Source: Pomacea canaliculata
Lineage: Eukaryota > Mollusca > Gastropoda > Architaenioglossa > Ampullariidae
Direction of reading: 5' to 3'
NCBI RefSeq assembly: GCF_003073045.1
Contig: NC_037597.1
Coordinates: forward strand, 4,708,717 to 4,772,716
DNA: 64,000 bases
Every line of letters starts with the position of its first letter. Position 1 is the stretch's first letter. Under the pieces are notes generated by a model. The model made no database searches. It had not been told where the DNA came from and saw only the letters and a list, made by a program, of their open reading frames with translations. A program made the position numbers and the translations under genes. Positions 932 through 33,767 of this stretch are shown here, piece by piece.

Positions 932-1500
932 ACTTTATGAAACTTCAAGGGTATAGTTCTCTCTCTTTGACTGTCCTTTGATCCATTACGAAATGGTAAC
1001 TGTATCTGTGTCACGTGAATTTCAAACACTGTTGCTGAAGCGTTAAAAGTTTAATTTCTGTGGAACTAATGAGCCATAGGCTGTCACCTGCTCAGGTAAC
1101 AAGGGCAGAAATTGTCTGCTAAACTTGGTTATTTGGCATTACTAGAATGCAATCGTTGAGCTTGATTTCACACCATGTTCCTGCACCTCTCATCTGTCAC
1201 CACGGAGCACAAATCACCAATCAACATGATACTGCCATAAAATGTGTATATGTGTGTGTCTATACTATGTCTATACTATGTCTATACTATGTCTATAGAT
1301 AGTACTGACAGAAGAGGACATACCACAATTCTGACATGATGTTGCTTTTCTTCTGAAGGTGGTGCTGTCGTCAATTGTCGGAGTCGACGTTGACCTCGTG
1401 TACAGGTCTCGTCTGTTGCAATGTGTACTCCACTTGCCGAACCTTGGTAGTAGAAGGTGGCTGCAGTGAAAGCTTTGAAACAGTTTGTTTGTGTCACCAG
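932..1500 (-). pseudogene. GH10 xylanase relic (part of intron 5, exons 5 and 4)
   Basis: Positions 932-1320 closely match intron 5 of GH10 copy C (24,130-24,520). Moving right on the minus strand, the match continues into the end of exon 5 (HDVRIV-like, about 1,327-1,345) and then directly into exon 4, recognised by TAATFYYQG and, in another frame, HEVNVDSDN. Intron 4 and most of exon 5 are missing, so exons 4 and 5 are joined by a deletion. Exon 4 is frameshifted after its first third and the conserved Trp of DNWRQ has become a TGA stop. No exon 6-12 remains to the left. This is a dead fragment of a fifth family member, closest to copy C rather than to its neighbour A. Confidence 0.75.
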
Positions 1501-1626
1501 GCTGCCATCTCCCAAAAGAGTAAACACATTTGCAAGGACGTTACAAACTGTAATGTCGACGTTGTAGGCTACCATGGATACAGACAGCATCCTTCAATAC
1601 CCTAACAGGCTGGGAACCTCTGGACC

Positions 1627-1702
1627 TACCACAGCTAGCCATATAGTAACAACGGTTTATGTCTGACCGCAGCTAGCCCTATGATACTAATGCTTTATGT
1701 CT
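1627..1702. repeat. Short tandem duplication, about 38 bp x2
   Basis: Two adjacent imperfect copies sharing CAGCTAGCC near the start and TTTATGTCT near the end. No function is evident. Confidence 0.6.
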
Positions 1703-1762
1703 TCCAAAAGCCAGAACTAAAGAAGGTAATGGGTACATTAGAAAGTTTTCTTTGTTTTCCTT

Positions 1763-2005: not shown

Positions 2006-2267
2006 GAGGAATCTATCGCGACCGTGACGGTCAAGTCTCAGGTCAGAGGTTATCAGCTTGACCGGTCTGCTAGAGAATTATAGCATCGAAAAGAAAAGCC
2101 GCAGAGAAACATGTTATGGTCTCATTTCTGGAGTTTTGGTGAACAATAAAACAGGGAAAGATCCAATTAGAAAGCATTGTTCTAATTTAATCACTATTTA
2201 TGAAATGTGCGCCACACGATTACAAGAACGTAAAAATATGAGGTCAACACTTGCTTTTTGAAATACA

Positions 2268-2273: not shown

Positions 2274-4980
2274 TATTCTGGGTTGTCTACAAAACGGGTT
2301 TTCTAGTGATGTTGGTGGCCCATGTTTAAAAAAAGGCTTTTCTTTATCCTGATGACTGTTGTCTGTGGAAATGAAAGAAATGTCTATTTATGGACGTTGA
2401 TGGTGACAGGGTGCGCCGTCCTGCCCAGTGAGAAGGTCTGCCTGAGGGCCGTCAGCTCGTGGTTCTGGTAGAAGACAGAGATTTGGTAATCACCATGGAA
2501 ACCGCGCACAGTCAAACTGCTGATTGGCTGTAGACAGGGTATGAGACTCGTGTGTCATCCACTGGTTCTCCAGCAGGTCCAGCACACGCCGCCCAGCCTC
2601 CGTCAGCTGCAACAACGGATATGAGATGTCAGTCATGTCACGTGAGCAGAAGAAACAGAGAGAGAGAGAGTGGGGGAGAAGAGAGAGAGAACATTGGCAA
2701 TTTCCTCATGATGCGTCTGACTGATGCACTGTTGGTGTGTTTGTCATCGTGATACTTTTCCCACTCCATCACTTACATCCAGGTTATTGCCTCTGACCAG
2801 AGCGGACTTCTCGCCGGCGTAATGAGCCTGGTCCCAGAAGCCCCAGAACAAGATGCCCTCCACCGCCTCGTGGCCGTACAGGGCGCGCAGTGCTCGCTCA
2901 TAGTGGTCTGCCCTCTTATGTTCATCAGCGACCTCCACCGTCAGCTCCGTGGCCCAGATGGGCAGACCTGCTTGAGCCAGAGTGTCCAGGCGGTACTGTG
3001 GACAATAGAGATCAGTCATTATTATCTGCTTTACTTAAAGCACTTTCATGTTCAGGTATGATACTTAATGGTCGTATGTTAAGCCCATATAACTGGTTTA
3101 TTGTGTCCAGGGTCCAGCATATAGGTCCCGCCCTTGGTTTACGGAGCCTCGACCTTCCCCGATAAACCGTCATTGGAATGGGGTGTAGCTGGTGGCTTCC
3201 AACCTCAGACCGAATCCGGTATTCCAACCCGCTTACTCGCCGAGAGTACTATGTGAGGCATCGAATGCTTTCTTAAAATCTGATTGCTTTCTCTTGGTTT
3301 TATTCAAGTCTGAATAACTTGCCAGAAACAGAACAAGGTTTTTGCGTCTCACCTTGATCATCGTGGGGGAGGGTTCCGTTTCTGCTGGCATGTGGCACTG
3401 GGCTCCGACGCCATAAATGTTGACATTGGCTGCTTTAAATTTATGTGCCTGAGCCAGGTAGGCCTGGCAAGAAAATATACATCGCATATAAAAATCATGT
3501 CATCAAAACTTGCTTTGTCGTCCAACATCCTTAAGCTCAATATGAATATTAATTAGAAAAAAACTGCTTCATTTAAGACTTTGGAATAAACAAAAATTGT
3601 CCAGGACTTATACTTAGGTTATACTTCTATGATAGTTTACACACGTACAGATGTTCTCTTACCCACTACTACTCACCCTTTCATTCGTACATTATTGCGC
3701 AAATAAAATACTGTTCTTTACACATAAAGTAAAACTAATTTATGAATGTGGTAGAAACGGTTAAAATATTATTGAGAATCGTTCCTGGGTAAGCTTAAAA
3801 TTAGAGCAATGATTTCCAAGTAGTGATCGCAGAATACGTAGGAAAAACTAAGTCTCATTTAAAATTACAAAAGGTTAAAGTTATTGTCTGAAGATAAAGC
3901 TGTGAGCACTCACCCCGTTGAGTCACCATACATTACAACACCATAGTCGTTGAGGAAGAGGTGAACGTTGGGGTCAGCAGCATGAGCTTCTCGGAAAAGT
4001 TCAAGGTCGTAGTTGATGTCATGGAGTGTCCTTTGATACCAGGATCCGTGCAGATTCTCGTTGTTTACATCCCAATGTTGCACCCTGTGTGGTGAAGACA
4101 TATCTTAGTATGGCATGAGTATGTGAGTGTGCAATCGTCCTGTCAGTAGTTGAGTAGGGTCACCACCTTACAATAGTTCATTAGGTGTCACATTAGCAGT
4201 GAGTTTATTAGAAAGACGGCCTCTGCCCTAACATCGTGTTTCCAGTCGGTTCTGTATTGTCTGTGTCGAGTATATAGAACATTGTAAGTGAGTGGAGCCT
4301 ATCATAGCACTTACTTACATTGTTTATTCCCAGATTACATTTTTTAGGAAAGAATATAATCCGGATCACCGAACACTATAGTGAGGTCTTTTGCTGAGAA
4401 AACTCTTTTTAATTAGAGAGCAGAGTTCAGTTCAAAATACTGTTTCCCCATATCGATACCATTTCCATTCTCCATACGTCATGATTGTACCTGGATACGT
4501 TTGCGTTAAATATGCGTATCCATGGAAACATTTGACTCTAGGAGTTAACTTCTTTCTATGTCTGGTGATATTTGGACATGTATATTGATAACAATATATT
4601 GAGACAATATTTACACAGGTTTAGAAAATAAGACCTTGTACTGAGTTTGTTTTGCTGTCTAACAGACATTTCAAGATACATTGAAAGAAAGGTGTTGAGT
4701 TCTGAGAGGTTAATGTGTTTGCTGTTGAATAAGAGTGGTGTTCAAAGGACCACCAAGACAAGACTGAAAAACAGTGAACACCACTCACAGCCCGCGGGTG
4801 AGCTGACAAGTCCACTGGATGTGTTTGCGCACCGTGTCGCGCAGCTGGTTTCCGGTCTGACCCCTGACGTAACTCGGCACATAGTTGTCATATGACTGGA
4901 CAAGGTTATGCCCTCTGACCCTTATTCTGTTTTTAGAGCAAATCAAAACACTGTGACTATAAATTGATTTTGGATTAATG

Positions 4981-5103
4981 TAATTAACTAAGTAACAATG
5001 TGCTAGTATTTCACAGTAATTAACTAAGTAACAATGTGCTGGTATTCCACAGTAATTAACTAATTAACAATGTGCTAGTATTCCACAGTAATTAACTAAG
5101 TAA
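4981..5103. repeat. 36-bp tandem repeat in intron 7 of copy A
   Basis: Three full copies and a partial fourth of a 36-bp unit beginning TAATTAACTAAGTAACAATG. The equivalent intron of copy B (about 14,262-14,305) has only one unit, so the expansion followed the A/B duplication. Confidence 0.85.
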
Positions 5104-7614
5104 CAAGTGTCGTTGAGTGTGAGCAAGTCTGTGTACAGAGTGAAATCTCACTAAGTGATTACCCATGGCTTGTCAGTCCTTTGAGAGCCTGGATTACATG
5201 GTCGTACTGATAATGGCCCTGTGATGGGGAAAAAAAGCCTTGAGTGACGACTGTTTGCTATACACAACTGTATAAAGGCGGCCATTTCTCACCCAAGATT
5301 CATTATATTTCCAACAACCACACATACAAACAAAACGCACATATTTCCCACGTTACAATGGTTTGAGCCAAAAATAAAAATTTGTTTTGTTTTGTGGAAA
5401 ATAATTTCAGAAAGGATAAACGTAATAAACCACATATTGCAAGATACAGTAAAATCTACAAATAGATTATATATATATATAAACATGCAATACATAGTTT
5501 AGACAAAGCTCCTGTCTGCTGTCTAAGGTACTGCAGACTGATGACACCAAAAGACACACAATAATAGCTTAATGAACTTCTGGAAATACTAATGTGGGAT
5601 AAAAAAAAAAGGGTAATATGTTACTGAATGAAAAAACACACAAACACAGGTTAATTCTTTGTAGTTAAACGTTCTTCAACTGCTAATACGAGGTTTGGAT
5701 ACGAGCAATGACGACTGCATAGATTCCATAACTTGTATACATCCACATGGTCAACAACGATGTCATCTATGAAGATTTTTTTTCGCCTTACCTGAGTCGG
5801 TTCGAGAAAGTCCCACTTGAGGGCGTTCTCAATCACGGCCCAGTTGAGGTGAGTGTGGATCCAGTCCCGGTACTTCTGCTGCGCCGAGTCCGTGTACTTA
5901 TACGCGCTGACGGCGCTGCCAAAGGGGAAGGACTTCTTGGTCTGCTTGACCTGCAACATCCACGTCCTCCCCATCATGAGACACATGTTTCTTTTATCCA
6001 ATGAGAGTGTCGAATTCTTCAAACCTCTAGTTTATTTACGTCGATCACTACTGTGGGATTATTTTTAGAGGGAGCACACTCGTCACTATCCATCATGATC
6101 CAATGTATCGTGAGATGGTAGGTCAGGGTTAGAACATGTAGCTGTGAGGACATGCCAAGAAGATTCGTGTCATCAGAAGTCGACATTAAAATATTCACAG
6201 CGCTAATGTTGGTGACAACACAACAACTGAACTCATCTCACTCACCTCAATCCTCACGTCGTGTGGAGCTATTCCGCTGGCGGTGGTGACACTGAAAAAA
6301 GAGAAATAGCAGGTGTAGCAGAATGTTTCACACCTGTATCTTTCCATACACCACGGTGTCAAGTACATGAAGAAAGGGATTTTCTTACTGGAAGTTGATG
6401 TCACTTTTTCCTAATTCTGTTGATGACTGCATCAGTCCTCTGTCGCCAGTTATCAGCGTTGACGTTAACCTCAACCATGGAGGCCTGGTCCACTAGGAAC
6501 TCTACACCTGCTTCGGGTCCCTGATAGTAGAAGGTTGCCGCTGATATAGCTGTAATACAAATAAACATTGCTCCTAAGTAGCATTTGATAAGATGAGCAC
6601 GGAAGTCCAAACCACCAGAGTGGATTTGCACCATCAAAAACTGGACCAGGTGTTTATGTATTAAAAAGACAATAAAGATTCATGTTGCGCATTTTTTCAC
6701 TGTGCAGTGGACTCGATGAACTTTACAAATGTTTCTGATTAAAGAATGAAAACAATTAAAGAACTCATGCAAACAGATACAAAATGGATATAATAAACAT
6801 ACGGACACAGACCAAAACACATCAGCAAACAAAGGCTAGAGACACGTTAGAGACAAAGGTGGAGACATCTGCTCATGAAGAGTGCCATGGGTTTGGTATA
6901 GGGTAGACTGCTGTCCATTGCGACCCTGACAATAACGAGTGGCATAACAGGTCCACCAACAGTCAAGAAAATTCATGGTTTAGTTACAGAAAATTCTAAT
7001 TTGTTGACACATAGTTCCAAAAGCGGCAAGATGGCGCAGATATGCCAGCAGAGACCACTAGTCCACCATTTAAAGTGGTTCATAAGAAAAAAGCTTCTTG
7101 GCGTAGACATAAAAGAACAATCAAGAAGATAGCAAGTGGCGTACGAATAACAGATCAGACAGTAGACACAACGCGTAATGATACATTGCATTGCCTGATA
7201 CTGTATGTTATTGCAGTGAGTTGTGCTGCATTGTATTTGACTAGTCACCTCACAGGTGAAACCAGTAACTTTGTCTCCCTCACATTTCTATGGTCGTCAT
7301 ACGCAAGAACTTCCGTCCAGACGTGAGTCTGACAGTCCTGCTCACCTTTGTTAGGAGTCAGGAAGTCGCCCTGCATGAGCACCCATCCATCAGCAACGGT
7401 CAGCAGGTTGCGCACAGCCCCAGTGATGAAATCAGTCTGACTACCTGTAAGTTGAACAGAATGGACTGTGCTGACTGTTCCTCTGACCTCTAATCACACC
7501 ATGCGACAACTACTACTATCTTTGACCACAACTCTACAACAAACTTACACGCTTGCAAACTAAACTATATTTCATGTTCTTCATTAACAAAGGTAAGCAA
7601 GCAATATTAATTAG

Positions 7615-7692
7615 CAAAGAAGGAATGAATGAAGGAAGGAAGGAATGAATGAATGAAGGAAGGAAGGAAGGAAGGAAGGAAGGAAGGAAGGA
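7615..7692. repeat. (GGAA/GAAT)n microsatellite in intron 2 of copy A
   Basis: Runs of GAAGGAAG and GAATGAATG ending about 15 bp from the GC splice donor of exon 2 of copy A. The opposite strand is a polypyrimidine tract. Confidence 0.9.
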
Positions 7693-8716
7693 GAAGGTAA
7701 TGCTCGCCTGAGTGAGAAACAGAGATCTCCAACATGATGGTGTGGCCGATATGGTTGGGCAGCTGGTTGAGCAGCTTCACGTAGCTCTGCACCTTGTAGT
7801 AAGTCCCGGGCTTGAGATTCACTGGTTGTGACGGCCCATGGTACGTCTGAGTTCTACAACATCCATCATCACCAACCTTCATCTTGCTTCCTTAAAAAGC
7901 CTTTAGTAAAACTTTGACCTGAGGTGATCAGACCACTCAAAGATCAAGTAGCCAGTCACAAGAAAAAGATGATAAGAGGGATGTTAGCAGAGAAAATACT
8001 TTTAAAACAAGCAGAACGTTTTTTTTAAAAATATAACACCTAAAATAATAAATAAATATCGTTTGCTGTCTACTCTCAGCGTTTTTTTTTTTTTTTTGTT
8101 TCTGCTGTGGACTAGCAGTGCATCTCAGTACGCTAGTAAACACTAAACATACGCTATGGAGACTAAATGCCAATAATGTTGTTTATCGCTCTTTGAAATT
8201 AAAAGTACGACAAAAACTCATTGACCTTTAACCTTCTAAAATTTATTTGCAATGCGGCAAAGCAGATTGACAGAATAGAAAGCATAGAAACAAAAATGAT
8301 CTTACAGACCAAGATAAAGAAGAGTAAAGGGAATCGGGCGACAGATATTAAAAAGTTCGTTAAAATATGCACTCAAAGACAAAGACAACATTATGTATTA
8401 AAACATGACCATAAAAATTATAAAGTGGAGAGTATGTCCAGTCACCTGCCAAAAGCCTTGAGAGAATGAGAACCAAAGCGTGAGTCGCCAGGAGCAACAA
8501 GTTCACATTTCAAGCCCCCGCAGTTCCAGTTGTTCAAGCTCTCAAAGCCGCCATTGAGGAGCTGTTCTCCTCCCACCAGACAACTCAGGACAACCAGGAG
8601 GACGCTGGTCCTCGTCCACAGGTCCACTGGAGTCCACATCGTGAGGAGTGAGGGTAGAGATGGCTCACCTTGCCTCCAGGTCCTTTGCGATGTGAATGAA
8701 GACTAAGGAGAGCTGC

Positions 8717-11716: not shown

Positions 11717-14700
11717 ATTGTGGGTGATCTACAAATTCGTTTTGTTAATGAAGGACAATGTTTAAACAAAGGGTTTGCTAGCCCCATGCTGATGACTGTT
11801 GTCTGTGGACATGAAAGAAATGTCTATGTGTGGACGCTGATGGTGACAGGGTGCGCCGTCCTGCCCAGTGAGAAGGTCTGCCTGAGGGCCGTCAGCTCGC
11901 GGTTCTGGTAGAAGACAGAGATTTGGTAATCACCATGAAAACCGCGCACAGCAAACTGTTGATTGGCTGTCGACAGGGTATGAGACTCGTGAGTCATCCA
12001 CTGGTTCTCCAGCAGGTCCAGCACACGCCGCCCAGCCTCCGTCAACTGCAACAGCGGATATGAGATGTCAGTCATGTCACGTGACCTGAAGAGAGAGAGA
12101 CAGAGAGAGAAAAATCTTCATCACTTACATCCAGATTATTGCCTCTGACCAGAGCGGCCTTCTCGCCGGCGTAATGAGCCTGGTCCCAGAAGCCCCAGAA
12201 CAAGATGCCCTCCACCGCCTCGTGGCCGTACAGGGCTCGCAGTGCTCGCTCATAGTAGTCTGCCCTCAGATGTTCATCAGCGATCTCCACCGTCAGCTCC
12301 GTGGCCCAGATGGGCAGACCTGCTTGAGCCAGAGTGTCCAGGCGGTACTGTGGACAGGAGAGATCAGTCCTGAGTTTTAACCACTATTTTCTGTTTTACT
12401 TAAGGCACATTCATGTTCAGAGTATACAGCGTTAGGTTTTCCGCAACTCAAAGGTTGGAGGTAAAGCCAAAGTAACGGGTTCATCGTGTCTAGAGTCCAG
12501 CAGAAAAGTCCAGCTCAGCCTGCAAGAGAAACTGAGAAAGGCCCACTCCATTTGTAGTCTTGACATGCAGATCATGAACCTTATGTTAAACTTTTGACTA
12601 CCCGCTCCAGGTTAGTTGGCCAAATAGAAATATTCGGTCTTGCCACTCGCCGCGTTTCTGCTTAATTAGTTCAAGTCTTTTCGCTTTCACTTTTGCAGAG
12701 AAAGAATTATTTGGACTGTCAATGTCGAAGTGAAACATCGCCAAATCTAAAATATAAAACTAGTCTGAAAGTTGAGTGAATATGCACCCTTACACCTATC
12801 ATAGGGTGGATAGACATAAATAAAAGTTGCGATCGTGCTTTTTGCCTGACTACTAGTGGAGGAAAGGAATGGTAGATTGGATGTCCCACTTCGTAGCCCA
12901 CAGGTGACCTTAGTAACCCATGAACTCTTGCAGGCTGGGTCCCTCTGCTTCTAACAACTCGACCTTCCCCGATGGCTGATTGTGATGGTGGGGCAGCGAG
13001 GCTTCCAACCAGACTCGGCCTCGAACGCACTTGTTTCATTGTCGAAGACACTCTCACACTAAAGACCCTCGCCTAAAGTTTGGCACGAGGCATTGAACGC
13101 TTTCTTAAAATCTGATGGCTTTCTCTTGGTTTTATTCAAGTCTGCGTAACTTGCCGGAAAAAGAAAACATTTTCTGCATCTTACCTTCATCATCGTGGGA
13201 GAGGGTTCCGTTCCCCCCGGTATGTGGGATTGGACTCCGAGACCGTACAGGTTGACATTGGCTGCCTTAAATTTACGTGCCTGCGCCAGGTATGCCTTGC
13301 AAGAAAATATACATTACAAGATTAAATATTATATTACAAAAACATATTTCTGTCGTCAAACATGCTTAAGCAGATTATGAATAAAAAGAAGGAAAACTGT
13401 TTTGTTGAAGACACAGGAATGAATGAAAATGCTCCTCGGAAATATACTTAGAATTGTGTAAGCCCGACAGACATTCATTTTCCCACTGGAGACGAGAAAA
13501 TGATGTATTAAGTGACTTTTTCCTTCTTTTGCAAATTAATTATTATCCAAACAAAAGTACTAAGACGTGAAATACATAAAATATTATTTAGAATCGTTCT
13601 GTAAACTTAAAATAAGAACTTAAGAATTTCCAAGTAATGATTGTAGAATATGTAGGAAAAGTAAATTATCTCATTTGAAGTCACCGGGAACAACAGGTTA
13701 AAGTTATTGTCTGAAGATAAAGCTGTGAGCACTCACCCCTGTTGATGCGCCAGAACCCACAACACCGTAGTCGTTGAGGAAGAGGAGGACGTGGGGGTCA
13801 GCAGCGTGAGCTTCACGGAATATTTCAAGATTGTAGTTGATGTCATGGAGTTGCTTTTGAAACCAGTATCCGTGCAGATTCTCGTTGTTTACATCCCAGT
13901 GTTCCACCCTGTGTGATGAAGACACATCTGAGTACAGTACAGAGTACAAAAGACATGTAAGTTGTATTGAAGGACAGTTGTTATTTCGTTGTGAACAGGA
14001 TTTCTTTTGAATGAGACGTGGTGTCCAAAGGACCATCAAGACAAGTCTGAAAGCATAAGTCCACTCACAGCCCGCTGGTGAGCTGACAAGTCCACTGGAT
14101 GTGTTTGCGCACCGTGTCGCGCAGCTGGCTTCCGGTCTGGTTCCTGACGTAACTCGGCACATACTGGTCAATGGACCACACAAGGTTATGCCCTCTGACC
14201 TTTAGTCTGTTTTTTTGGAGCAAATCAAAGCATGGTGAGTAAAAATTTATTTTGGATTCATGTGTTAGTATTCCACAGTAACTTAACTAAGTAACAATGC
14301 TCCTAAGTGTGAAGTCACAAGTTTCACTCATTACCGATACAGAGGTCAAATGTCACTAAGTGATTACCCATGGCTTGTCAGTCCTTTGAGAGCCTGGACT
14401 GCCGTTCGTACTGCATAATGGCCCTGTGATGGGAAAAATATTCACAACTGTTTAAAGGCAGCCATGCCTCACTCAAGAGTCATTACATATCCTCACAACC
14501 ACACATACAAACAAAACGCACATATTTCCACAATTACTTTTGCAGCACATTAAGGAATCTATAATTAACTCAGCAGTAAAATAGTTTTAGCCGAAAAGAT
14601 TTGAGTTTGTTTTGTGGGATATAATATCGTGAAGAAAAAAAGTAATGCAAACAATATACTGCAAGTTATACTAAAATCTCTTCATATATAAAAGCATACA

Positions 14701-14916
14701 ATACAAACACTTTAAACTTGTCTACTGTCCGTTACAGTACAGGCGGGTGATGCGAAGTAATGAAGTGTTCAGTCGAATTGTTTAATTGATTTTTCACCTA
14801 CTTTACATCGTCCTAGAGGTCTGAAATTTTCACTAGTTACTCATTTCTGGTTACAATGCAATATAAACTCATTTACAGAGGTAAAACAAATTATTTCAGT
14901 AATTTATATACTAGAC

Positions 14917-15066
14917 CAGACCTGGGCAAAGGCCCGGCCACTGGCCTGCCCGCCAGTATACTATATATACAGTATTGGGTAAAACAGTTAACTATATTAG
15001 TCCGGCCCTCTAAAACCATCCCAATTTCTCATGCGGCCCCTTGGGAAAATTAATTGCCCACCCCTG
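14917..15066. mobile_element. hAT-type MITE family 2, 150 bp, perfect 8-bp TSD
   Basis: It begins CAGACCTGGGCAAAGG and ends TTGCCCACCCCTG (imperfect inverted repeats), flanked by the octamer TACTAGAC at 14909-14916 and 15067-15074. It lies in intron 6 of GH10 copy B. A second member is at 31,447-31,616. It has no coding capacity. Confidence 0.9.
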
Positions 15067-16626
15067 TACTAGACCTTAGTTTTCCTAATAAGGGGAGATA
15101 GGTAACTAATGCTCTAAGCCTAGAAAACTATAGGTTATCTCCCCTAATTCAGCCCAAAAGAATTTTTGAAATTTTTTTTTTTTTTTTTTTCTTTTTGCCT
15201 TACCTGAGACGGCTCGAGCTGCCCCCACTTGAGGGCGTTCTCCAGCACGGCCCAGTTGAGGTGAGTGTGGATCCAGTCCCGGTACTTCTGCTGCGTCGAG
15301 TCCACGTACCTCCACGAGTTGATGGCGCTGCCAAAGGGGAAGGACTTCTTGGTCTGCTTGACCTGCAACATCCCAATCCTCCCATCATGAGATACGTGTT
15401 TGTGTTTATCCAATGAGAGTGTCAAATACTTCTAAACCTCGAGTTCATTTACGTCGATCACTAACTGTGGGATTATCTTTAGAGGTAGCACACCCGTCAC
15501 TGGATTTCAGTGTAATGATAGGTGAGAACTTTCACCTTTTAGGCAGTTGTGACGGCAGGGCAATAATGTTCTTGTTACGACAAAGCATCAGAAGTCGACA
15601 TTAAAATATTCACAGCACTAATATTGGTGACAACACACCAGCTGAACTCATCTCACTCACCTCAATCGTCACGTCGTGTGGAGCTATTCCGCTGGCTGTG
15701 GTGACACTGAAAAATATTAAAAGCTCTTTGTAAAAAAAATTATAGAAATAGCTTTGCGTATAAATGTATCAGAATGTGTCACACCTGTATTTTTACATAC
15801 AGCATCTGAGTCCCGAGTACAAGAAGAAAGGATTTTCTTACTGGAAGTTTATGTCACTTTTCTAACTTCTGTTGATGACTGCATCAGTCGTCTGTCGCCA
15901 GTTATCGGCGTTGACGTTAACCTCAACCATGGAAGCCTGGTCCACTAGGAACTCTACACCTGCTCGGGTCCCTGATAGTAGAAGGTTGCTGACGATATAG
16001 CTGTAATACAAATAAACATTGCTTCTTAGTGGCATTTGATGGCCAGGAAATTTGAGAGTGAATATGCTCTGTGAAAACACCGATGCAGATGTTCATGTAT
16101 TCGCATCGCATTGCATTGTATGATACTGAATGTTACTGGAGTGTGTTGTGTTGCATTGTATTTAACTTGTCATGTCACATTTAAGGCAGTAAACGTATCT
16201 CCCTCAAATTACTATGGTCGTTATGTGCAATGAATTCTGTCCAGATGTGGAGTCCTGCTCACCTTGACTAGGAGTCTGGAAGTCGCCCTGCAAGAGCACC
16301 CATCCGTCAGGCAACGGTCAGCAGGTTGTGCACAGCCCCACCAATGAAATCAGTATGTCCGTCTGTAAATAAAACAGTATGCTTCCTCATAATAATTATA
16401 ATCTTAGACAGACCTGCTGGACTATCGTGACGATTCCACATAAAAATTCTTGCGGTATAGTGACGATCGTCCAATAGGGGTTTCCTGCATACGAGGCAAG
16501 AACTCGAAAACAAGCTTACACAGTAAAAAAAAAATTATTATCAAAGGTAAGTAATTAATATCAATGCACACACGCACGCTAACAGGCACGCATGCGCGAA
16601 GGAAGGATGGAGGAAGAAAAAAAAAC

Positions 16627-16817
16627 ACGAACTTGTATTACTGGCCAGCTTGCGTATGAGATTTTTCCCACGTTAACTACTAAAACGAGGCTAATGTATA
16701 CAAAGCTTCCGGTTTAGCCACGTTCATTATTTAGGCTCGCCGACACTAACAGAGGAGAGGTTTGCAACAAGCGTCGGTCTCGGCAGTCAGACAGCAGTCC
16801 ACCTATACACGTCCGTA
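16627..16817 (+). repeat. Dispersed repeat family 1, copy 2
   Basis: Matches 11,481-11,675 along its length (ACGAACTTGTAT at the left, CCACCTATACACGTCC at the right). It sits in intron 2 of copy B and ends about 25 bp from exon 2's decayed donor. Confidence 0.75.
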
Positions 16818-20664: not shown

Positions 20665-23600
20665 CTATGTTGTGATGTTGATGTCGACAGTGTGAGCGGT
20701 TTTGACCAGTGAAAATGTTTGCCTGAGGGCCGGCAGCTCCTGGTTCCGGTAATAAACAGACACTTGGTAGTCGCCATGGAAACCACGTACAGTGAATTGC
20801 TGATTGGCTTGCGACACCTCGTGAGTTTCGTGCGTCATCCACTCGTTCCAAAAGAGATCCATCACGCGCCGTCCGGCAGCTGTGAGCTGCACAATAAGAC
20901 AAAAACTTACGTGAGATCTGACGAGAAACTGCGTTAGTGACCGGCAACCGATTTACTTGCTCCTTGCCTCCATGAGAGAAAGAAATACCTATGCACACCT
21001 ACACAATACATAAAGGGCGAACAAAGCACAAAAGATAAAGAACACCATCATTTGTCTTTTACAAGAAAGAAAAAAAAGAGAAAGACTATTAAAAAACTCT
21101 TTAAGGTCTGCAACAATGTTTTCGTCAAACATTTTTTTTTTAAAATAAAGAAGCATATTAACTCTGTTTTCATTTTCAGAAGCACATCCACTCACATCAA
21201 GGTTGTCCCCACTGACAAGTGCGGCCTTGACCCCGGCGAAGAAGGCCTGGTCCCAGAAGCCCCAGAACAAGATGCCCTCCACCGCCTCGTGGCCGTACAG
21301 GGCGCGCAGTGCTCGCTCGTAGTAGTCGGCTCTCTTGTTCTCGTCGTCTGCCTCCACCGTCAGCTCCGTGGCCCAGATCGGCACACCCACCTGTGCCAGT
21401 GTGTCCAGGCGAGACTGGGGAAACAAATGGCAGCTTGATTAGATTTTTTACACATTATTTCGGTTACTTAATATCAAGTGTGCGCCAGTATTTGTACAGT
21501 TTTAAGTTCTATAATATTTATTTGTAATGTAGACATCCTCACTGGGCAAAATCAACGTGAGACCATAGAGTTGACATCCTTGTCAGCTGGTTGTACAACT
21601 ATGACGTCAGCATCAACGTTGGACAGGCAGACAGTGACGTGTGTCTAAGCAGTAAGCACGTGACACGCCTTGTAAACAACATCATGCAAAGTCCACTGGC
21701 TGTAGCTTCAGTGCTTTAATTTGTAGCACTGTGACCCAGTCGCTTTTAATTTATTTTATTGCAATTAGTGGCGAAAGCTAATGAAATAGCTGGGGAGGGG
21801 GTTAGACAATGTCAGCTCACCTTGATCATCGTGGGGGAGGGTTCAACTTCAGGTGTAAAGTGGCACTGGACACCGAGACCATACATGTTGACGTTGGCAG
21901 CTTTAAATTTACGAGCTTGGGCCAGGTAAGCCTGTCAGGACAGTGACACATTACCTTGTAAGGACTAAGATTATTGACAAACCTAAAATAATAGATAAAA
22001 TATATTTCATGCATGTACTCTCTTTAACAAAACAAAACTTAAGCGAAAAAAAAACCTAACAAAACAAAATCAAAGTTAAGAACAAAAGCATAGTGAAAAC
22101 AAATAAAAAAAAGACACAAGGCCGCCAGATAAGTACAGTAAAGACTTATCAATGTGTATGACCGATTACAAGTGTCCATGTCAGGACTGACCCCAGTGGA
22201 GTCGCCTCCAGCCACAACGCCGTAGTCGTTGAGGAAGAGGAGGGCGCGGGGGTCAGCAGCGTGAGTCTCGCGGAAAAGTTCAAGCTCGTAGTCGAGGTCA
22301 TGAAGTTGCCTTTTGAAACCAAAATCCGTGCAAATTCTCGTTGTTTACATCCCAGTGCTCCACCCTGAAAATGGAACACGAAGATATGTGCACTAGTGTC
22401 AGCAACTTAGTCTGGTGTCCACACCAGACCCAAACAAGGAAGAGATAAGAAACTCATCTCTGAACTATTCCAACTGCAAAGATTGTCGGCTGTGGACATG
22501 TGGACACGGTCTGTCGACTATGCAGATACATCCTGTGTAGGAGAATATATTGAGGCACACTACACTGCTCAGTTTTCCAGTGTAAACACTGTACCTTATT
22601 AAAGAATTAAACCTTTTTATAGAACTTGGGCAATTTAATAATAGTTTGCAGTTAAGCTAATGGTTATTTTAAGATAAATTTCAATGCATAAATACGTCAT
22701 GATTCATTGTTTCCGACTTAAATCAAAGTAACTATAATATAATAATATAAATAATAATAATGATGAAGGCAAGTGTTGTATAGCGCATACTCACACTCCT
22801 AAGGAACATGCTCGTAGCGTTTTTGAACAAGAAGGAGACACGAGTAGCACACGAGGAACAGAAGAACAAACAAACAATAATTGTAGAAACGACGGAAGGA
22901 TAAAGTACTTACAGTCCGCGCGTGAGGTTGCACGTCCACTGGATGTGGTTACGAACTGTGGCCTTCAACTCTTCGCCGGTTTGGCCCTTGATGTAGTCAG
23001 GTACAAACTCGTCGATAGACCACACAAGGTTATGTCCCCTGATTTTCAGCCTGTTCAAACACAAACACAAACACACAAACAAAAATACACAAACACAAAC
23101 ACACACATACACACGCACACACACACGCGAGGGCACGCATGCACGCACGCAAAACATTAATGTTCACGTAGATATAACCTAGCAGTGAACATAATTATCT
23201 CCCTTGAGATGTCTTAAAATTACTTCCCTTTCCTGCTGTTTCGTTTTCACACTTTCTGTCTCAAAGGATAAAACTGGGTGAAGGCTAGAAAGAAACGAAC
23301 TGAAAGCAAGAACTCGAGCACTCAATGCATCTCTCTGTGTTGTGTGTATTACTGTAAGATATACTTTACTTACCCGTGACTCTTCAGCCCCTCTAGAGTC
23401 TTCACCGCACGGTCGTACTGCAGGAAACCCTGTGGAGGAGACAAAACACTCTAGGAGTGTAAAGTAAAAACATGCAAGCGTGTGTGTGTGTGTGCAACGA
23501 TTTTACACAAATCGAAAGACAATACCTACGTGGGTTTTCTTACCTATACCCAGCATCAGTTTGACCTGCTTGTCAACAAAAGAAAGCTAGAGCTCGAGAA

Positions 23601-26476
23601 GAACTAAATGTTTTAGTTTCCTTACAAAATGTCAAAGATATTACTCAAATACATTTACAGCTGGGATGATGATAATAATAATTCTTCTTATTAAACATAT
23701 TATTATTATTGGTCATACGTTCAGACTTTGATATCCACACAATGAAGTAGAGTTTGTTTTCAAAAGAGGTTTCATAGCAAGCACCGAACTCAGAGACACA
23801 GACATAGGAGTGATACATAATTCCCGATTGCATCTTACTGTTCAACACCTGTAAATACTAGGGTCAGTCATACTCAGGTGTATGTGTGTATCAGATGAAT
23901 GGACACAGACCTGAGTCGGCTCGAGTTGTTCCCACTTGAGGGCGTTCTCCAGCACGGCCCAGTTGAGGTTGGCATGGATCCAGTCCCGGTACTTCTGCAG
24001 GTTTGGATCCACGTACTTCCACGAGTTGATGGCGCTTCCGAATGGAAAGGACTTCTTGGTCTGATTGATCTGTAACATGCACAGGTAAGTATATAACTAT
24101 ATCGTGTACAGTGATGTACATGTCCAATCACTTTATGAAACTTCAAAGGTGTAGTTCTCTCTTTGACTGTGTCCTTTGATCCATTAGGAAATGTTAACTG
24201 TATCTGTGTCACGTGAATTTCAAACACTGTTGCTGAAACGTTTAAAGTTTAATTTCTGTGGAACTAATGAGCCATAGGCTGTCACCTGCTCAGGTAACAA
24301 GGGCAGAAACTGTCTGCTAACTTTGGTTATTTGCCATTACTAGAATGTAATCGTTGTGCTTGATTTCACACCATGTTCCCTGCACCTCGCATCGGCCACC
24401 ACTGATCACAAATCACCAATCAACATGATACTGCCATAAAATGTGTATATGTGTGTGTCTATACTATGTCTATAGACAGTACTGACAGAAGAAGAGAACA
24501 TACCACAATTCTGACATCATGAAGTGAAACATCGCTTGGTGTAGTCACCCTGAGAAACATGCAAGAAACAGAAACTATCAGGATATACAAAATACCGACA
24601 CGTGCAGTCAAGTAGTTTACAACCCACCCACACAATTTATTTTTAATGTTAGTCTTTTCTGTTGGACGCTTTCATCTTCAAATACTGGACGTCAGTCATA
24701 AATAACTAGGAAGATAACGATGACATAGATGTCAGTAGAGAGACATCCAGGCTGGTCAGAACAGCAATAGACAGACTGGAGGTAGACAACAGATATATAC
24801 ATCCACAAAGGAAATATATATTATAATATAGAGTATATGTGTGTATGTGTGTGAGGGAGTATATATATATGTGAGTAGGTGGGGAGTGTGTGAGAGTGAA
24901 TGTATGTGGAATCGTGTTTACACTCTATCTATGCAGGAAACACAACCAAGAAAGAGGATTCTTACCGGAAGTTGATGTCGCTTTTTCTCACCCTGTTGAT
25001 GACCTCGTCAGTCCTCTGCCGCCAGTTGTCGCTGCTGACGTCCACTTCGGTCATGGTTGCCTGGTCCACGACGAAGTCGACTCCGGGTTCAGGTCCTTGG
25101 TAGTAGAAGGTTGCTGACTTGAAGGCTGCAACACAGAGCATCACCACCCAGTTCACACTACTCTTATACTCGGATCAGTGATCGCAAGGAGCAGTGACCA
25201 CGTGCCACCGTCTGCACGACACGAAGACTATTTGTACCTGTGAGACTAATGACGACCACAGGTACAGACTGTTAGCTTCAAACAACAGGTGAGCATCATC
25301 ATCTGCCGACCCATATTAATGATCAGTTCTGTCCCGTGACATCCTCCAGTCTCAAATATTTTCTTTGCAAGTAAGAACTCGTTTGGGACATTGATTCGTG
25401 ATAAATAATGTTTACCTTGAAATCAGTCTCCTGTTGCTGTACTGGCAGTCATTATTATTTTACTTGCTTCCTCGCCATATTTGTGTTTGCAATGAGACTC
25501 AATGCATTAACAAAAAATGGTTTCTGATATCTTGCACCCTTGCACCTAGAACTTTCCCGTCCTTTGCCGTATCTTCCTATTATGATTATGTCCCCTTGTC
25601 CATTTTCATTATTTCCTGTTACACTTTTATGACCATTTCCACTTACTAAAAGAACATTCAGCTTCATAAAATGTACAAGCCTTTGAAGTTTCAGTCTCAT
25701 TTAGTGTTTCTTCATCATTCCTAAATATAAATATAAACTGTGTTAATTGATAAGCTTTATAAGATGAACCGATGCGAGTATTTTAATTATTTTTAATCTT
25801 GCATCATGCCATAAATCTTCAAACCTTGACTAGGAGTCAGGAAGTCTCCCTGCATGAGCACCCATCCGTCAGCAAGGGTCACCATGTTACGCTGAGCCCC
25901 AGTGATGTAGGTAGAGCTTCCATCTGTAAATACAAACAATCGTGAGATTGGTGACCACACGCATTTGCGTGTAATTGTTGTTCTAAAATGACCCGTTGGA
26001 AACAATACATAACAACGAGTGCTAATTAGTCATATCCAATCAGTGTACACTTGCCTGTCAGAGCGAAGCTGATCTCCAACATGAGGGTGTGGCCGATGGT
26101 GGTGGGCAGCTGGTTGAGCAGCTTCATGTAGCTCTGCACCTTGTAGTAAGTCCCGGGCTTGAGCTGTACATCCTGAGATGGCCCCATGTAGGACTGGGTC
26201 CTGCAACATTCAGAATCAGTCTCAGAGACAGAGAACACAGGGAAGTATGGAGTTTGAAAGTGTGGAAAGTATGTCCAGTCACCTGCCAGACGCCTTGAGA
26301 GAATGAGCACCAAAGCGCGAGTCGCCTGGAGCAACAAGTTCACATTTGAAATTCCAGCAGTTCCAGTTGTTCATGGTCTCAAAGCCGCCATTGAGGAGCT
26401 GTTCTCCTCCCACAAGACAACTCAGCACAACCAGGAGGACGCTGGTCCTCGTCCACAGGTCCTCTGGTCTCAACAT
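20665..26476 (-). CDS. GH10 endo-1,4-beta-xylanase copy C (one frameshift in exon 9)
   Basis: Exons: 26283-26476, 26055-26200, 25825-25923, 24966-25125, 24504-24549, 23911-24069, 23374-23429, 22913-23050, 22192-22364, 21821-21931, 21196-21414, 20665-20886. The expected product is about 573 residues: signal peptide about 1-24, CBM4/9-like domain about 25-170, GH10 barrel about 175-500, C-terminal beta module 501-573. Predicted catalytic residues are Glu-342 (HWDVNNE) and Glu-444 (WATEL). Exon phases agree with A, B and D. Exon 9 has one extra base just after FWFQK, which would end translation soon after the acid/base Glu; everything else is open, so this is a fresh null allele or a sequencing indel. 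The start aligns with the ATG of A and B; an in-frame ATG lies 27 bp upstream. Intron 2 uses CAG|GCAAGT; intron 3 starts GTTTGA. Confidence 0.85.
22740..22815. repeat. SINE/LINE-tail-like repeat in intron 9 of copy C
   Basis: An AAT-rich run, then AAGGCAAGTGTTGTATAGCG and CATACTCACACTCCTAAGGA, resembling conserved 3' ends of animal SINE/LINE families. Identified by pattern memory only. Confidence 0.3.
23055..23148. repeat. (CA)n-rich microsatellite in intron 7 of copy C
   Basis: CA and CAAA repeats starting a few bases from the exon 8 acceptor of copy C, on the intron side. Confidence 0.88.
24130..24520. repeat. Intron 5 segment of copy C duplicated at 932-1320
   Basis: About 390 bp nearly identical to the left-end relic, beginning CACTTTATGAAACTTCAA and including CTGTCACCTGCTCAGG and ATCAACATGATACTGCC. 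It documents a C-like origin for the relic. Confidence 0.85.
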
Positions 26477-26567
26477 TGTCAGCAGTGACAGCAGGAATCG
26501 CACACCTTGCAGGTAGATGGGTCACCAACTGTAGCAACTGTCTGGCTCAGTATTAGTAACTCCCAGA

Positions 26568-28204: not shown

Positions 28205-28551
28205 TCAGGCGGTCACGTGGATGGTGACGGCGTGAGCGGCTTTGCCCAGGGTGAACCTCTGGGTGAGACTACTCTTGGCGCTGCCCTTGTACAGCACAGT
28301 GACCTCGTAGTCGCCGTGGAAACCGCGCACAGTATGCTGGGAGTTGGACGAGGTCGGGGTGAAGGTCTCATCGGTCATCCACTCCTCCTCCAGCAGATGC
28401 AGCACGCGCCTCCCCGCCGCCGTCAGCTGCAACACGCGCATGGATGTATGACATGGATGACATGGATGTAGGACAGAGAATACCTGGCCATAGGCTGGCA
28501 GTTATCTGCCCTTCTCGTTCTTATCTCAAGCATGTTTCCCCCTTATTATTA

Positions 28552-28629
<78 letters not shown>

Positions 28630-31600
28630 GACACAGAAAGCACGAGAGGTGCTAGGAGCAGAAGGTCTCACCTCCAGGTTGTCTCCCCGGACGAGGGCGG
28701 CCTTCTCGCCGGCATAGTGCGCCTGGTCCCAGAAGCCCCACAGGAGGATGCCGTCCACCGCCTCGTGGCCGTACAGGGCCCTCAGGGCTCGCTCGTAGTA
28801 GTCGGCTCTCTTGTTCTCGTCGTCCACCTCTACCGTCATCTCCGTGGCCCAGATGGACACGCCTGCCTGCTTGAGCGTGTCCAGGCGGTACTGCACACAC
28901 GTACACAGGTAAGCCACTTACAAACACACAGGTAAGCCACGTACACACGCACACAACGGCGGTACAGCGCCAACGTGACGTCACTAGTCGCACACATGTG
29001 ACGTCGCACAAAGGAAATGTATAGCAGGTTAAGGTCAAGTCAGAGTAGATGGAGGGTACTGAACCTACTAGACTTACCTTCACCAGGGCAGGGCTGGGCT
29101 CAAAGTTGTAGGCAAAGTGGGACTGTACCCCGATACCCCCGAGGCCAACGTTGGCAGCCTTGAACCTCTTCGCCTGCTCCAGGTAGGCCTTGACACACAC
29201 ACATATGATAAATTATGGGGTCGGTGTACAGAAAAAATATCTTTACGGTTCGCTAACGCTGAGACTACAATACACTGACATTGCTTTATTTACATGCGTA
29301 TGACAATCACCAAAATAAGCATTTTTTTACATGATGGCCTCACAGAAAGCAGGGAAGAGTATGTTTAACAGTAGAAGGCGAACAGTAATAAAGTAAACGA
29401 CTCACCTGTGTGACACCGCCACCGGCAACCACGCTGTACTCATTGAGGAAGAGAAGAGTATCCGGACAAGCTTTGTGCGCGATACGAAAGATTTCCAGGT
29501 CATAGTCACGGTCTTGGAGTCGATCCTGGAACCACCAGCCATGGAGGTTCTCGTTGTTGACATCCCAGTGCTGGAGGCTGACAGAGACAACAACATGTTA
29601 AGCACGCGCATCTCCCACAGAGAGAAAGTCACCGAGTCTTTCACACCTGACATTTGAAGGTTGTAGAAACGCTCATGGAAGGTACAAACAAACAAACAAA
29701 CAAACAAACAAACAAACAAACAAACAAACAACAAACAAACAAACAAACAAACAAACAAACAAACAAACAAACAAACAAACAAACAAACACACACACTTAC
29801 TAGCCTCGTGTCATGTTGCACACCTTCTCGATGTGTTGCTTGACTGTCGTTCGAAGCTGGTCGCCGGACAGTGCGCGGACCCATGGGGGGATAAAGTCTG
29901 TTGAGGCAGACCACACCAGATTGTGACCTCTGACCTTTATGCTGGGATTATGACAAGAAAGGACATCAGCACAATACTTTTGATTAATTTAACATAATGA
30001 CTTGAAATCAAAATTGTATGATGATGATGAAATCCAAACAGACCTGCACCGGAGCTCACTTTCCATGCTTGACTAGTGGGACAGTGGACATCGCAATGAA
30101 AGACAATCATCGAAAAGAGAAAAGACGAGGCAAGGTACGAGGAGCGCGCCAGCAGATAAAGAAAATCGAGCTTTCACGATGTTTTTCTTACCCATGACTT
30201 GTCAGGCCCTTGATGGTCCCCATTGCTGGTTCTGACTTAAAGTTACCCTGTAATAAAGTAAACAAACAACAAATTAACAATTTTCCTTCTGCGAACAGAA
30301 TGAAATGAATAGTTTTCATTGGCCAAAATTCATGTTGTGGTAGTCTTTACGATTGTAACCTGCTGAAATGTAATCTGTAAAACTCAGTTAATTTGTTCTT
30401 CATAACCAGTTCAGACAATCTGAGTTTCTCATGGTTAAAAGTGTCATGTAGGTGCATCCAGTGCTGCTAGGGAGGGTCACCTGGTCCCACTCCAGCATTG
30501 TCCACTTGAGGGCGTTCTCCAGCACGGCCCAGTTGAGGTGAGTGTGGATCCAGTCCCGGTACTTCTGCTGCGTGGAGTCCACGTACTTATACGCGCTGAC
30601 GGCGCTGCCAAAGGGGAAGGACTTCTTGGTCTGCTTGACCTGCAACATCCCCAGCACACGTGACAGATCCCTTATACACATTTACATAAGTTACAAGACC
30701 CTTTGCTGTTAAATGTTTTCTCAAAGCTGTCCAATTTTTTATGACGGCCACAACCCAGTACTGACAACATTCTGAACCGCACCTTAATTTGCACCTGTGA
30801 AGGTGTGACACCGGAGTCGGTCGTGATGCTGTAACAAAAAACACAAGCACACACATACACACACGGTTAAATAAAATATATTTTACGGGAACTAAAAATG
30901 GAAGTTAATATCAACATGACTTCCCAAAGCAGAATATTATTGTAATCTGAAGTGGACCTGGACTCTTGACTTCAAACAATGAGCAAATAAACATACAGTC
31001 AAATCTCCCTACTATGCCACCCCTCTACTATGCCACTCTCGGTATTATGCCACTTTTGCTCGGTCCCGACTATAAATTCAATGTAAAAAAAAATTTACTA
31101 TGCCACCCAGACTCTCGCTACTATGCCACTTTTTTGTGACTGTTAAAAGACACAAGTTGTGAAATTTCGCGCAGTGCTCGAATATTATACTCTATGGTAG
31201 TGTGGGACATCGCTGTTAGTGGGGATGGAACATAGCACGCACACAGGGAGGGTGGAGGCTGGCAATGTGGGGGGGGGGGGGTGGTGTCGCTGGCCGGGTG
31301 ACAGCCACGTGACAGAGGGAAGGTGTGAGGGGGTCGACTAGCGACAGGATGCAGGTGCGCGGATGTGGTTGGAAGGGGTGGAGGATGAAGAGGTGAGGGG
31401 GAGAATGAGAGGAGACAGCTAGCGACGATTCTTGAGAGCTTTGGACCAGACCTGGGCAAAGGCCTCCTGTCTGTGACCGGCCCGCCCACCCGCCCGCCAG
31501 TATATATACTATACATACAGTATTAGGTAAAACTGATTTAACTATATTAGTCCGGCCCTCTAAAACCATCCCAATTTCTCATGCAGCCCCTTGGGAAAAT

Positions 31601-33767
31601 TAATGGCCCACCCCTGCTTTGGACTGACGGGTAACTTGAGCAAATAAAGCCGTTTTTACGAACCCTCTTTACTATGCCACTCTCGCTACTATGCCACTTT
31701 TGCTCGGTCCCGGTAGGTGGCATAGTAGGGAGATTTGACTGTATTACATATTTTAGGATCTGTGTGTAAGGTTTGAACTCGAGCGACGAGAGAGGGTTAG
31801 TGTTTTACTCCGAGTCAGCAACTGAAGTCATATAAGGACCAAGGTGCTGGCCCTGTAAACAGATTGGGACTAGACGAAGGACCCCTATTTTGTGTGAAAG
31901 TTCATATCATCAATTATCTTTGTTATTTCAAAAGCTTTGAAAGACAAGCATATTTTACAGTGTGCACTACTCTGATGTTAGCAACATTAAGTTAACCATA
32001 GTAAGAACGGAATAAATAGTCAGACAATAGTCAGACATGAGTACACACTAACCGTAGATTGATATCACTTTTTCTCACGCGGTTGATGACTTCGTCCGTC
32101 TGCTGCCGCCAGTTGGCATCAGACAGATTTAACTCTGTGATGGACGCCTGGTCCACTGCAAACCCGACCCCAGGCGCAGGTCCTTGGAAGTAGAAGGTAG
32201 CGGAAGTGAAGGCTGTGGTGGAAAGGACAAGTCAGAAGTAAACATTATACAGCCATCATAATATCCTTTGGATAGTAATTGAAGACAAGAAGATTTTCTA
32301 GTATTGTCACCAGGGGCGCCTCTAGGCTCGTGGTGGCCGAGGGCAAAGAACGAAACGGTGGACCCTTCTCCCGCCAATGTCAATAAAACCAAGTGGCGGC
32401 CCGTAATATTCTCACAGACCGTTAGAATACTACACATACTGTATACTGCTCCGACTCTAGCAACATCAACACAGCGAATTAATTAGCAAGAAACAATTTT
32501 TCGGCCACATTGCCGTCAGCTGCGTCCTTATTTTCTCTTTCTGTTTTGTATTTCATATATATTGGCATGGCAGCCCCTGGAACTTGGCGGCCCTGTGCAG
32601 GTGCACAGTTTGCACTTGCCTAAGTCCACCCCTGTTGCTACATAGGCAATCATAGATTAATTAACAATCTTCAGAAAATGTTTCATTTTAAGTCGTGAAG
32701 CTACTTTCGATGAAAATATTTTTCTTTTTACTTCTGTGTTATGTACCAAGCATCCTCCAAAATTTCTTTTGCGCTTTGATAGTTGCAGAGTGTGGGGTGA
32801 AAATTATATTAACGGAAATTGTACAACACAATCTTTTCCTGATTATTCGCTAATTCATGCCAAACCTATGGTGGGAGCCTGGAGGTCTCCCTGCAGACAC
32901 ACCCATCCATCAGCCACCCTCAGCATGGGCTGCAGCGCGGCGTTCATGTAGGTGTTGCTGCCATCTGCTCGAAGAAACAACTGCTTTAACTGTTTTCACC
33001 CTCACACTAACATTGAGATGTTACAAGTTATCTGAAGTAATGTGTTGGAGTAATAGACCTTGGCGACTGATGTCCTGTCTTGTTTTATGTAATAAGGTTT
33101 ATACATACAAGAGATTACTTTCAAATATGTTTTCATCTTGCACTGTATTTTTATTTTACCGAACCTTGACCTAAAATTCAAAAAGACAAATGAAAGGGGA
33201 GACAACTGACCGGCAAAGGTAAAGCTGACCATGAGTTGCAGGGACTGGCCAACCGTGTTGGGCAGATCGTTGAGGATCTTCATGCAGCTCGAGACCCGGT
33301 AGGTCTGTCCTGGCTTCATCTGAACATTCTGGGACGGACCCATCCAGTCTTGTGTTCTGTCACAGGCCACGTACATACAGCGATGTGAGTGTGAGTGGTG
33401 CAATGTGACAAATTACAGTCACTCTCAACTCGGTGTAAAGGCCAAAGGTCAAAGTAAAAGATTCCATAGCCAAGAAGCTGGAGGGGCAGTGAACGTAAGG
33501 GGTTCATCGTATCTAGGAGATAGCTTGTGAAAAGGGATCATAATCATCATCATCCATTCATCCATCATCCATCATCCATCATCATCATCACCTTCCAGTG
33601 GCGCTCAGCGAGTGACTGCCAAAGCGCGAGTCGCCAGAGGCAATGAGCTGACACTGGAAATTCCAGCAGTTCCACCCGGACATAGACTCGAAGTCTCCAT
33701 TCTGCACGAGCTCGCCTGCGACAACGGAGAAGCAGACGGCCAAAGAAAGCAGCATCCAAGTAGCCAT
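28205..33767 (-). CDS. GH10 endo-1,4-beta-xylanase copy D, intact
   Basis: Twelve exons, all in phase: 33592-33767, 33211-33356, 32866-32964, 32053-32212, 30783-30828, 30481-30639, 30192-30247, 29801-29941, 29406-29577, 29078-29188, 28672-28890, 28205-28426 (TGA). They give 568 residues. MATWMLLSLAVCFSVVAG is a signal peptide; the CBM4/9-like domain follows (NGDFES; PGQTYRVSS; the VDQASITE end in exon 4). The GH10 barrel spans about 170-495 with FPFGSAV, GHNLVW, acid/base Glu-337 in HWDVNNE and nucleophile Glu-439 in WATEM; exon 12 adds the VRGFHGDY module. GH10 enzymes hydrolyse internal beta-1,4-xylosidic bonds, and gastropods are known to carry such genes for digestion. D is the most divergent copy, the only one with a GT donor in intron 2 (CCG|GTCAGT), and exon 8 is one codon longer. 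A 5'-UTR intron (about 33,780-33,865) is plausible because TTTTAG lies 10 bp before the ATG. Confidence 0.92.
28543..28626. repeat. (ATT)n microsatellite in intron 11 of copy D
   Basis: About 27 ATT units, ending about 45 bp from the exon 11 donor. Confidence 0.97.
29684..29788. repeat. (AAAC)n microsatellite in intron 8 of copy D
   Basis: About 25 CAAA units with one slip, ending about 12 bp from the exon 8 splice donor (GTTTG repeats on the transcribed strand). Confidence 0.97.
30996..31741. mobile_element. pogo/Tigger-type MITE, 746 bp, TA target site
   Basis: The ends CAGTCAAATCTCCCTACTAT and its inverted complement (31,717-31,741) are near-perfect 25-bp inverted repeats, flanked by TA on both sides as in Tc1/mariner-superfamily pogo/Tigger elements. 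Subterminal blocks ACTATGCCACT recur several times at each end. The interior has no transposase and contains a second, nested element at 31,447-31,616. It lies in intron 4 of GH10 copy D. Confidence 0.9.
31447..31616. mobile_element. hAT-type MITE family 2, nested copy, 170 bp
   Basis: The same family as 14,917-15,066 (CAGACCTGGGCAAAGG to GGCCCACCCCTG), with its own perfect 8-bp duplication CTTTGGAC at 31439-31446 and 31617-31624. It was inserted inside the pogo-type element, so it is the younger of the two. Confidence 0.92.
31795..31885 (+). repeat. Gastropod SINE-like repeat, copy 1
   Basis: AGTGTTTTACTCCGAGTCAG, then CTGGCCCTGTAAACAGAT, matching 43,005-43,130 in order and spacing. It sits beside the pogo-type element in intron 4 of copy D. 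Confidence 0.5.
32311..32634. mobile_element. Probable MITE, 324 bp, intron 3 of copy D
   Basis: Left end CAGGGGCGCCTCTAGGCTCG; the right end, read inverted, is CAGGGGTGGACTTAGGCAAG, matching at about 14 of 20 positions. Flanks (TTGTCAC and TTGCTAC) are similar but not an exact duplication. The CAGGGGCG/CACCCCTG ends suggest hAT-like ancestry. Confidence 0.6.
33542..33591. repeat. (ATC)n-type microsatellite abutting a splice donor
   Basis: ATC/ATCC repeats run up to the exon 1 splice donor of copy D; on the transcribed strand the intron begins GTGATGATGATG. Confidence 0.9.

Follow-up and report, generated by a model that had tools for sequence, protein, structure and literature searches.

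Background

The closest described systems to the locus analysed here are the family 10 cellulase EGXA and the xylanase of Ampullaria crossean, together with the GHF10 genes of Pomacea canaliculata; these belong to the same enzyme family and come from the same kind of animal, and the likeness is one drawn from their descriptions. Two GHF10 genes and their genomic organization were reportedly treated by Imjongjirak in 2008. Transcripts of GH10 type are reported from the apple-snail hepatopancreas (PMC5322654), and an expansion of the GH10 family in Ampullariidae is described (PMC13336756). No paper on the array described below was found among the open-licence papers searched. By analogy with what has been described for snail GH10 enzymes, the products of the array would be secreted and would have plant cell-wall glycans in the gut as their substrates.

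The locus adds one more case of tandem turnover to the known GH10 expansion, and what is added in the present work is a corrected count of its intact genes, a pattern of probable exon-scale conversion between its members, and a set of active-site changes that the members share. These last bear on a possible departure of some members of the snail GH10 expansion from ordinary xylan hydrolysis.

Organization of the array

The window is the whole stretch of 64,000 nucleotides that was analysed, C8:4708717-4772716 (contig NC_037597.1 of the Pomacea canaliculata assembly GCF_003073045.1), and coordinates below count from its first base, with negative values for positions in the left flank. Comparison of the window with itself gave four minus-strand copies and one fragment, and spliced alignment, with the open copy E as query, bore out the sequence-only reading in its description of four 12-exon genes and a relic lying head to tail on the minus strand, with end coordinates (932 and 33767) that are right. 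That reading had also counted five members and a single full-length enzyme, both of which proved to be artefacts of the window. A protein search of the whole genome (440,159,624 bases in 24 contigs) with copy D, followed by reading of the fetched flanks, located two further open 12-exon genes, E and F, directly to the left. The array accordingly consists of six GH10 genes and one relic in tandem on the minus strand, in the strand order D, C, B, A, relic, E, F, and the number of intact genes at the locus is corrected from one to three (D, E and F). The features are as follows.

28205..33767, minus strand: copy D, a complete 12-exon GH10 gene of 568 codons with no lesion and with all introns GT-AG
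Exons 1-6 of D, minus strand: 33592-33767, 33211-33356, 32866-32964, 32053-32212, 30783-30828, 30481-30639
Exons 7-12 of D, minus strand: 30192-30247, 29801-29941, 29406-29577, 29078-29188, 28672-28890, 28205-28426
20665..26476, minus strand: copy C, 12 exons, frameshifted once, by a single base, in exon 9 a few codons beyond the acid/base Glu
11824..17616, minus strand: copy B, 12 recognisable exons, of which exons 5, 6 and 8-12 are open
2384..8639, minus strand: copy A, 12 exons; single-base frameshifts, three in all, lie in exon 4, at the end of exon 9 and in exon 12
about 931-1480, minus strand: the relic, in which a broken piece of exon 4 is joined to the last part of exon 5, with part of intron 5
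1..930: window edge, across which the array runs on leftward into E and F
C8 4698914-4707634 (window coordinates -1082 to a stop at -9802), minus strand: copy E, 12 exons, open
C8 4688026-4696811 (window coordinates -11905 to a stop at -20690), minus strand: copy F, 12 exons, open

A search for a seventh copy with exon-1 peptides across 114 kb (the locus and its flanks) led to six places and to nothing further that was convincing. A genome search with the Pfam profile PF00331 listed nothing inside the window, probably owing to the low score that an individual exon reaches. Elsewhere in the genome, GH10 sequence was found at C8 20.53-20.63 Mb, C8 25.5 Mb, C7 4.56-4.58 Mb and C13 11.6 Mb; the counts at these places are lower bounds, since 77 of 250 candidates from the protein search with D were scored.

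The relic, which is nearest to C (88% identity over 417 columns), sits in the spacer between A and E, and the spacer between E and F skips the matching stretch. Copies A, E and F are 85-90% identical over a stretch of about 1.4 kb that takes in the surroundings of exon 1 and the sequence upstream of it, which indicates that the gene and its upstream region were duplicated together. The donor of intron 2, as aligned, is GC in five of the six copies (AG|GC in A, C, E and F, and AA|GC in B), and GT in D and in the four copies that were read from the array at 20.5 Mb.

Lesions, age and constraint

The sequence-only reading had called D open, C damaged by one lesion, A by three and B by many, and this tally held when the copies were aligned and read. 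In B, the spliced alignment gives five frameshift calls in exons 1-4, with a one-codon gap adjoining one of these calls, and exon 4, as aligned, also contains an in-frame stop; by reading, the donor of exon 1 is lost, and exon 7 has its usual length but a shifted middle, which is read as two compensating indels. In the assembled sequence, B thus carries the several disabling lesions by which pseudogenes are recognised, and it looks like a real and recent one. In A, the aligner lists two frameshifts, in exons 4 and 12, while the third, a single missing base at the end of exon 9, was hidden by the aligner as a false one-base exon and was confirmed by reading.

The relative ages of the copies can be judged from their silent divergence. 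Values of dS, for which the codons beside frameshifts were masked by hand (a step that removes much of exon 1 of B), are 0.08-0.17 among A, B, E and F, 0.68-0.73 between C and these four, and 1.2-1.4 between D and all the others, so that on this measure A, B, E and F are recent, C is older and D is the oldest, and the earlier claim of a local GH10 array with turnover stands.

How long each copy was retained as coding sequence can be assessed by comparing indels in exons with the number expected at the intron rate. For the pair E-F, 28 indels fall within 1902 aligned bases of the introns that were compared, and none within 1719 bases of coding sequence, where 25.3 would be expected. The corresponding observed and expected counts are 3 and 26.3 for A-E, 3 and 28.7 for A-F, 12 and 78.5 for A-B, and 11 and 129.2 for B-E; the intron rates are taken from introns of similar length, with introns 1 and 7 skipped, and those for B rest on two or three introns. 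The coding sequence was therefore constrained until recently, and the deficit in B implies that even this copy was kept as coding for much of its separate life. The idea that A and C had been in long decay does not agree with the three coding indels of A, set against the roughly 26 that the introns predict in the A-E pair, which make its losses either recent or assembly errors.

A codon model was also fitted, and the branch values of omega are 0.13 for D, 0.20 for C, 0.25 for F, 0.44 for B, 0.77 for A and 0.85 for E, as obtained with a home-made implementation in which the tree is fixed, A, E and F are joined as a star, and conversion is ignored. A value of omega=1 is clearly rejected for D (2dlnL 146.5) and F (16.6) and weakly rejected for B and C (2dlnL 4.6 and 5.4), and the branches of A and E are indistinguishable from 1. 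Because its omega is not distinct from 1, the constraint on E rests on the absence of indels. These patterns suggest that D and F are maintained enzymes, and that E probably is too.

The copies A and C would, on the sequence as assembled, be either very recent pseudogenes or working genes that have been misassembled. The second possibility, in its full form, is that the shifts seen in A and C arose in assembly or are present on one allele, in which case the locus would hold five working enzymes (A, C, D, E and F) and the pseudogene B; it is somewhat less likely than not. The four lesions of A and C are all single-base indels, and three of them lie within runs of four or more identical bases as assembled (one such run spans a splice junction), although these runs make up 2.7% of the coding sequence of A and 4.4% of that of C. 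The likely source assembly was built from PacBio reads and corrected with Pilon, and the genome is termed highly heterozygous (PMC6129957). No in-frame stop was found by the aligner in A or C, and the low omega of the C branch is in keeping with a working gene. Lesions located in runs, however, fit replication slippage as well as they fit errors of a long-read consensus, and real slippage favours such runs too. Against the possibility of error, the A branch has a high omega and A lacks the Trp of the GHNLVW motif, and six copies without a frameshift (D, E, F and three of the four read in the 20.5-Mb array), which were chosen non-randomly, indicate that errors are not everywhere.

Probable exon-sized conversion tracts

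Two stretches of the array are far closer between copies than the remainder of the same genes.

30502..30650, minus strand: probable conversion tract in D, covering most of exon 6 and about 11 bases of intron 5
26262..26510, minus strand: possible conversion tract in C, covering exon 1 and short flanks, with 85-88% identity to A, B, E and F

The tract in D has 93-96% identity to A, B, E and F and drops sharply at either end, the likeness starting about 11 bases upstream of exon 6 and stopping 21 bases before the end of the exon. The pS between D and these four copies is 0.10-0.20 in exon 6 and 0.49-0.96 in the other exons. The tract is thus short and sharp-ended, with silent divergence far below that of the rest of D, as is expected of conversion. 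Of the sites of exon 6 at which A, B, E and F are identical to one another, 15 have D matching these four and not C, and 1 has D matching C and not these four, a pattern that differs from that of the other exons (Fisher P=5.4e-6, or P=1.7e-4 for third positions alone). A stricter scan that uses four-fold sites also picks out the exon-6 segment, with P=0.010, 0.010, 0.032 and 0.036 for D against A, B, E and F respectively; for D against C, the same scan gives P=0.051 for a segment in exon 11. The pS of C in exon 6 is about the same to D (0.35) as to A, B, E and F (0.32-0.36), which suggests that D was the recipient.

In exon 1 of C, the pS to A, B, E and F is 0.06-0.15 (P=3.7e-7, in a test inflated by D's own divergence), and the four-fold-site scan of C against these copies returns segments wider than the exon, spanning exons 1-4 or 1-6, with P between 0.013 and 0.035. 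As judged from these site patterns, both the exon-6 likeness of D and the exon-1 closeness of C would be the product of gene conversion, and in D a short conversion-like tract links paralogues that are otherwise near silent-site saturation.

It might be supposed instead that the likeness of D to A, B, E and F in exon 6 reflects strong constraint on the exon, and such an explanation would gain from the facts that the silent sites of C and D are also closest there (the pS of 0.35 compares with 0.42-0.78 in the other exons) and that the four-fold-site scan is only moderately significant. Constraint of this kind would bind C as well, yet D sides so unevenly with the other four copies against it, and the likeness begins within the intron and ends abruptly inside the exon. 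Constraint as the sole cause was set aside on the strength of the site pattern, and is improbable.

In exon 12 of D (28205-28426), D agrees with A, B, E and F and not with C at 31 sites, and the converse holds at 11 (P=0.003, uncorrected for the 12 exons).

Evolution of the array

The reading that we prefer is that this array of six 12-exon GH10 genes and a relic is evolving by duplication, exon-scale conversion and occasional recent loss, and it is very probably correct. On this model the copies would encode an N-terminal CBM4/9 module followed by a GH10 barrel, tandem duplication would build the local array, gene conversion would act between the copies at the scale of exons, and copies would occasionally and recently have been lost. 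Along the strand, the lesions number 0 in D, 1 in C, many in B and 3 in A, followed by the fragmentary relic and by 0 in both E and F, and so show no relation to position; nor does their number track age, since E and F, which are free of lesions, are of the same recent origin as A and B. A positional gradient of decay was considered, and was dropped after E and F were read. The account in which five family members show graded decay and a single full-length enzyme is left holds for the window taken alone, and deserves almost no credence once the two open copies immediately to the left and the course of the lesions are taken into account. In a tandem array, time cannot be read from the number of lesions.

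Family identity and active site

Matching of whole proteins to Pfam was done for copy D, which matches PF00331 (Glyco_hydro_10) with E=9.6e-44 and 150.3 bits against a cut-off of 22.1, and which has an N-terminal match to PF02018 (CBM_4_9) with E=6.1e-14. The best solved match to D is a bacterial GH10 protein in PDB entries 7d88 and 7d89, with E=5.4e-66 over residues 171-540, which extends beyond the barrel. This protein we take to be XynA of Bacillus sp. KW1. The KW1 XynA is described as GH10 only, with no binding module (PMC6408826).

The acid/base and nucleophile Glu are present in all six copies, in columns checked for D against 7d88 and 7d89, and both catalytic Glu of D align with the Glu/Ala difference between these two entries. 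The wider active site was scored with the list of residues of the -1 and -2 subsites given in PMC6163442, of which 12 of 13 positions were used, placed by motif rather than by alignment to TmxB, with Gln111 and the residues of the +1 and +2 subsites outside the scored set. Ten of these motif-placed positions are kept in all six copies: both catalytic Glu, Glu67, Asn68, Lys71, His104, Asn152, Gln228, His230 and Trp300. Trp108, which is the Trp of the GHNLVW motif, is kept in five and is replaced by Gln in A only, while Trp308 is kept in none, being Tyr in five copies and Phe in C.

A further change shared by all six copies is the replacement by Thr of the Asp that stands two residues past the nucleophile. 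In Cex of Cellulomonas fimi, the nucleophile is part of a network to which the corresponding Asp and the QSH-motif His also belong. Among the solved sequences that were aligned, this column holds Asp in 7d88 and its mutant 7d89, in 1nq6 and in the synthetic construct 6fhe; 1ta3 has the TELD motif but is gapped at the Asp column. The Trp308 column, in the last loop, is Trp in 7d88/7d89, 1nq6 and 1ta3, and lies outside the aligned part of 6fhe. The array therefore differs from its best solved match at both positions.

Within the genome, ten copies of exon 11 from outside the array could be compared. Nine have Asp at the first position, and the tenth, the C7 copy at 4.575 Mb, has Ser where the array has Thr. 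Seven of the same ten have Trp at the second position, one has Gln, one has a different loop, and the C7 match ends before the residue is reached. Since the Thr and the Tyr or Phe are common to intact and broken copies of the array, these changes predate the lesions.

The shared substitutions and the purifying selection on D and F can be brought together in a tentative proposal, which we advance with the balance tilting somewhat against it: the array may represent a branch of GH10 whose active site was remodelled, the changes having become fixed before the copies spread, and whose members might have an altered specificity or pH dependence, or a binding role, instead of being ordinary xylanases, and among which conversion might spread useful segments.

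Other GH10 copies and relatives

The array at C8 20.53-20.63 Mb, of which four neighbouring copies were read as a control from about residue 13-17 onward, closely resembles the present one in exon plan and intron phases, as far as those copies show. Two of the four align in 12 exons, with all 11 intron phases identical in one and 10 of 11 in the other. Three are without a frameshift, and in one of these (g1) the aligner added two introns in the region of exons 4-5, where the structure is unsure; the fourth has altered motifs and received two frameshift calls. Unlike the six genes of the present locus, the 20.5-Mb array keeps the Asp past the nucleophile and, for the most part, the Trp, and it forms a separate group, with modest support (86/86), in a tree of exon 11 that has one row per gene (16 rows, 71 columns, one starred fork of 13) and leaves out the partial 20.576-Mb copy, the 20.555-Mb copy and the C13 copy. 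In the same tree, the C7 copy at 4.575 Mb falls beside C inside the group of the array, on a long branch, so that the array may not be a clean clade. At C8 20.532 Mb, in the 20.5-Mb array, there is a GH10 copy in which the nucleophile Glu is replaced by Ala (ITALD); it is among the ten outside copies of exon 11 compared above, and its match in the genome search has one in-frame TAA.

In prokaryote genomes, one scan yielded 37 candidate stretches, with a single relative confirmed (the bacterial L044), in which the Asp and the Trp are kept. A lone sequence of this sort is not enough to support a claim on origin.

Other features in and near the window

In the remainder of the window, a frame of 361 codons (47476-48561) has no match in Pfam, and neither do 12 others. 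A 637-codon open frame at 58918-60831 on the plus strand matches a MULE transposase (E=2.7e-6), and at 40780-41411 a 48-base unit is repeated about 13 times, with 91% matching. Intron 7 of E holds a long array of a 36-base unit (window coordinates -6628 to -5986), of which there are 3.5 copies in A, at 4980-5106. A repeat, probably a transposable element, is common to introns of B (14914-15066) and D (31444-31616), with 83% identity, and has a shorter match in the right flank near 68205.
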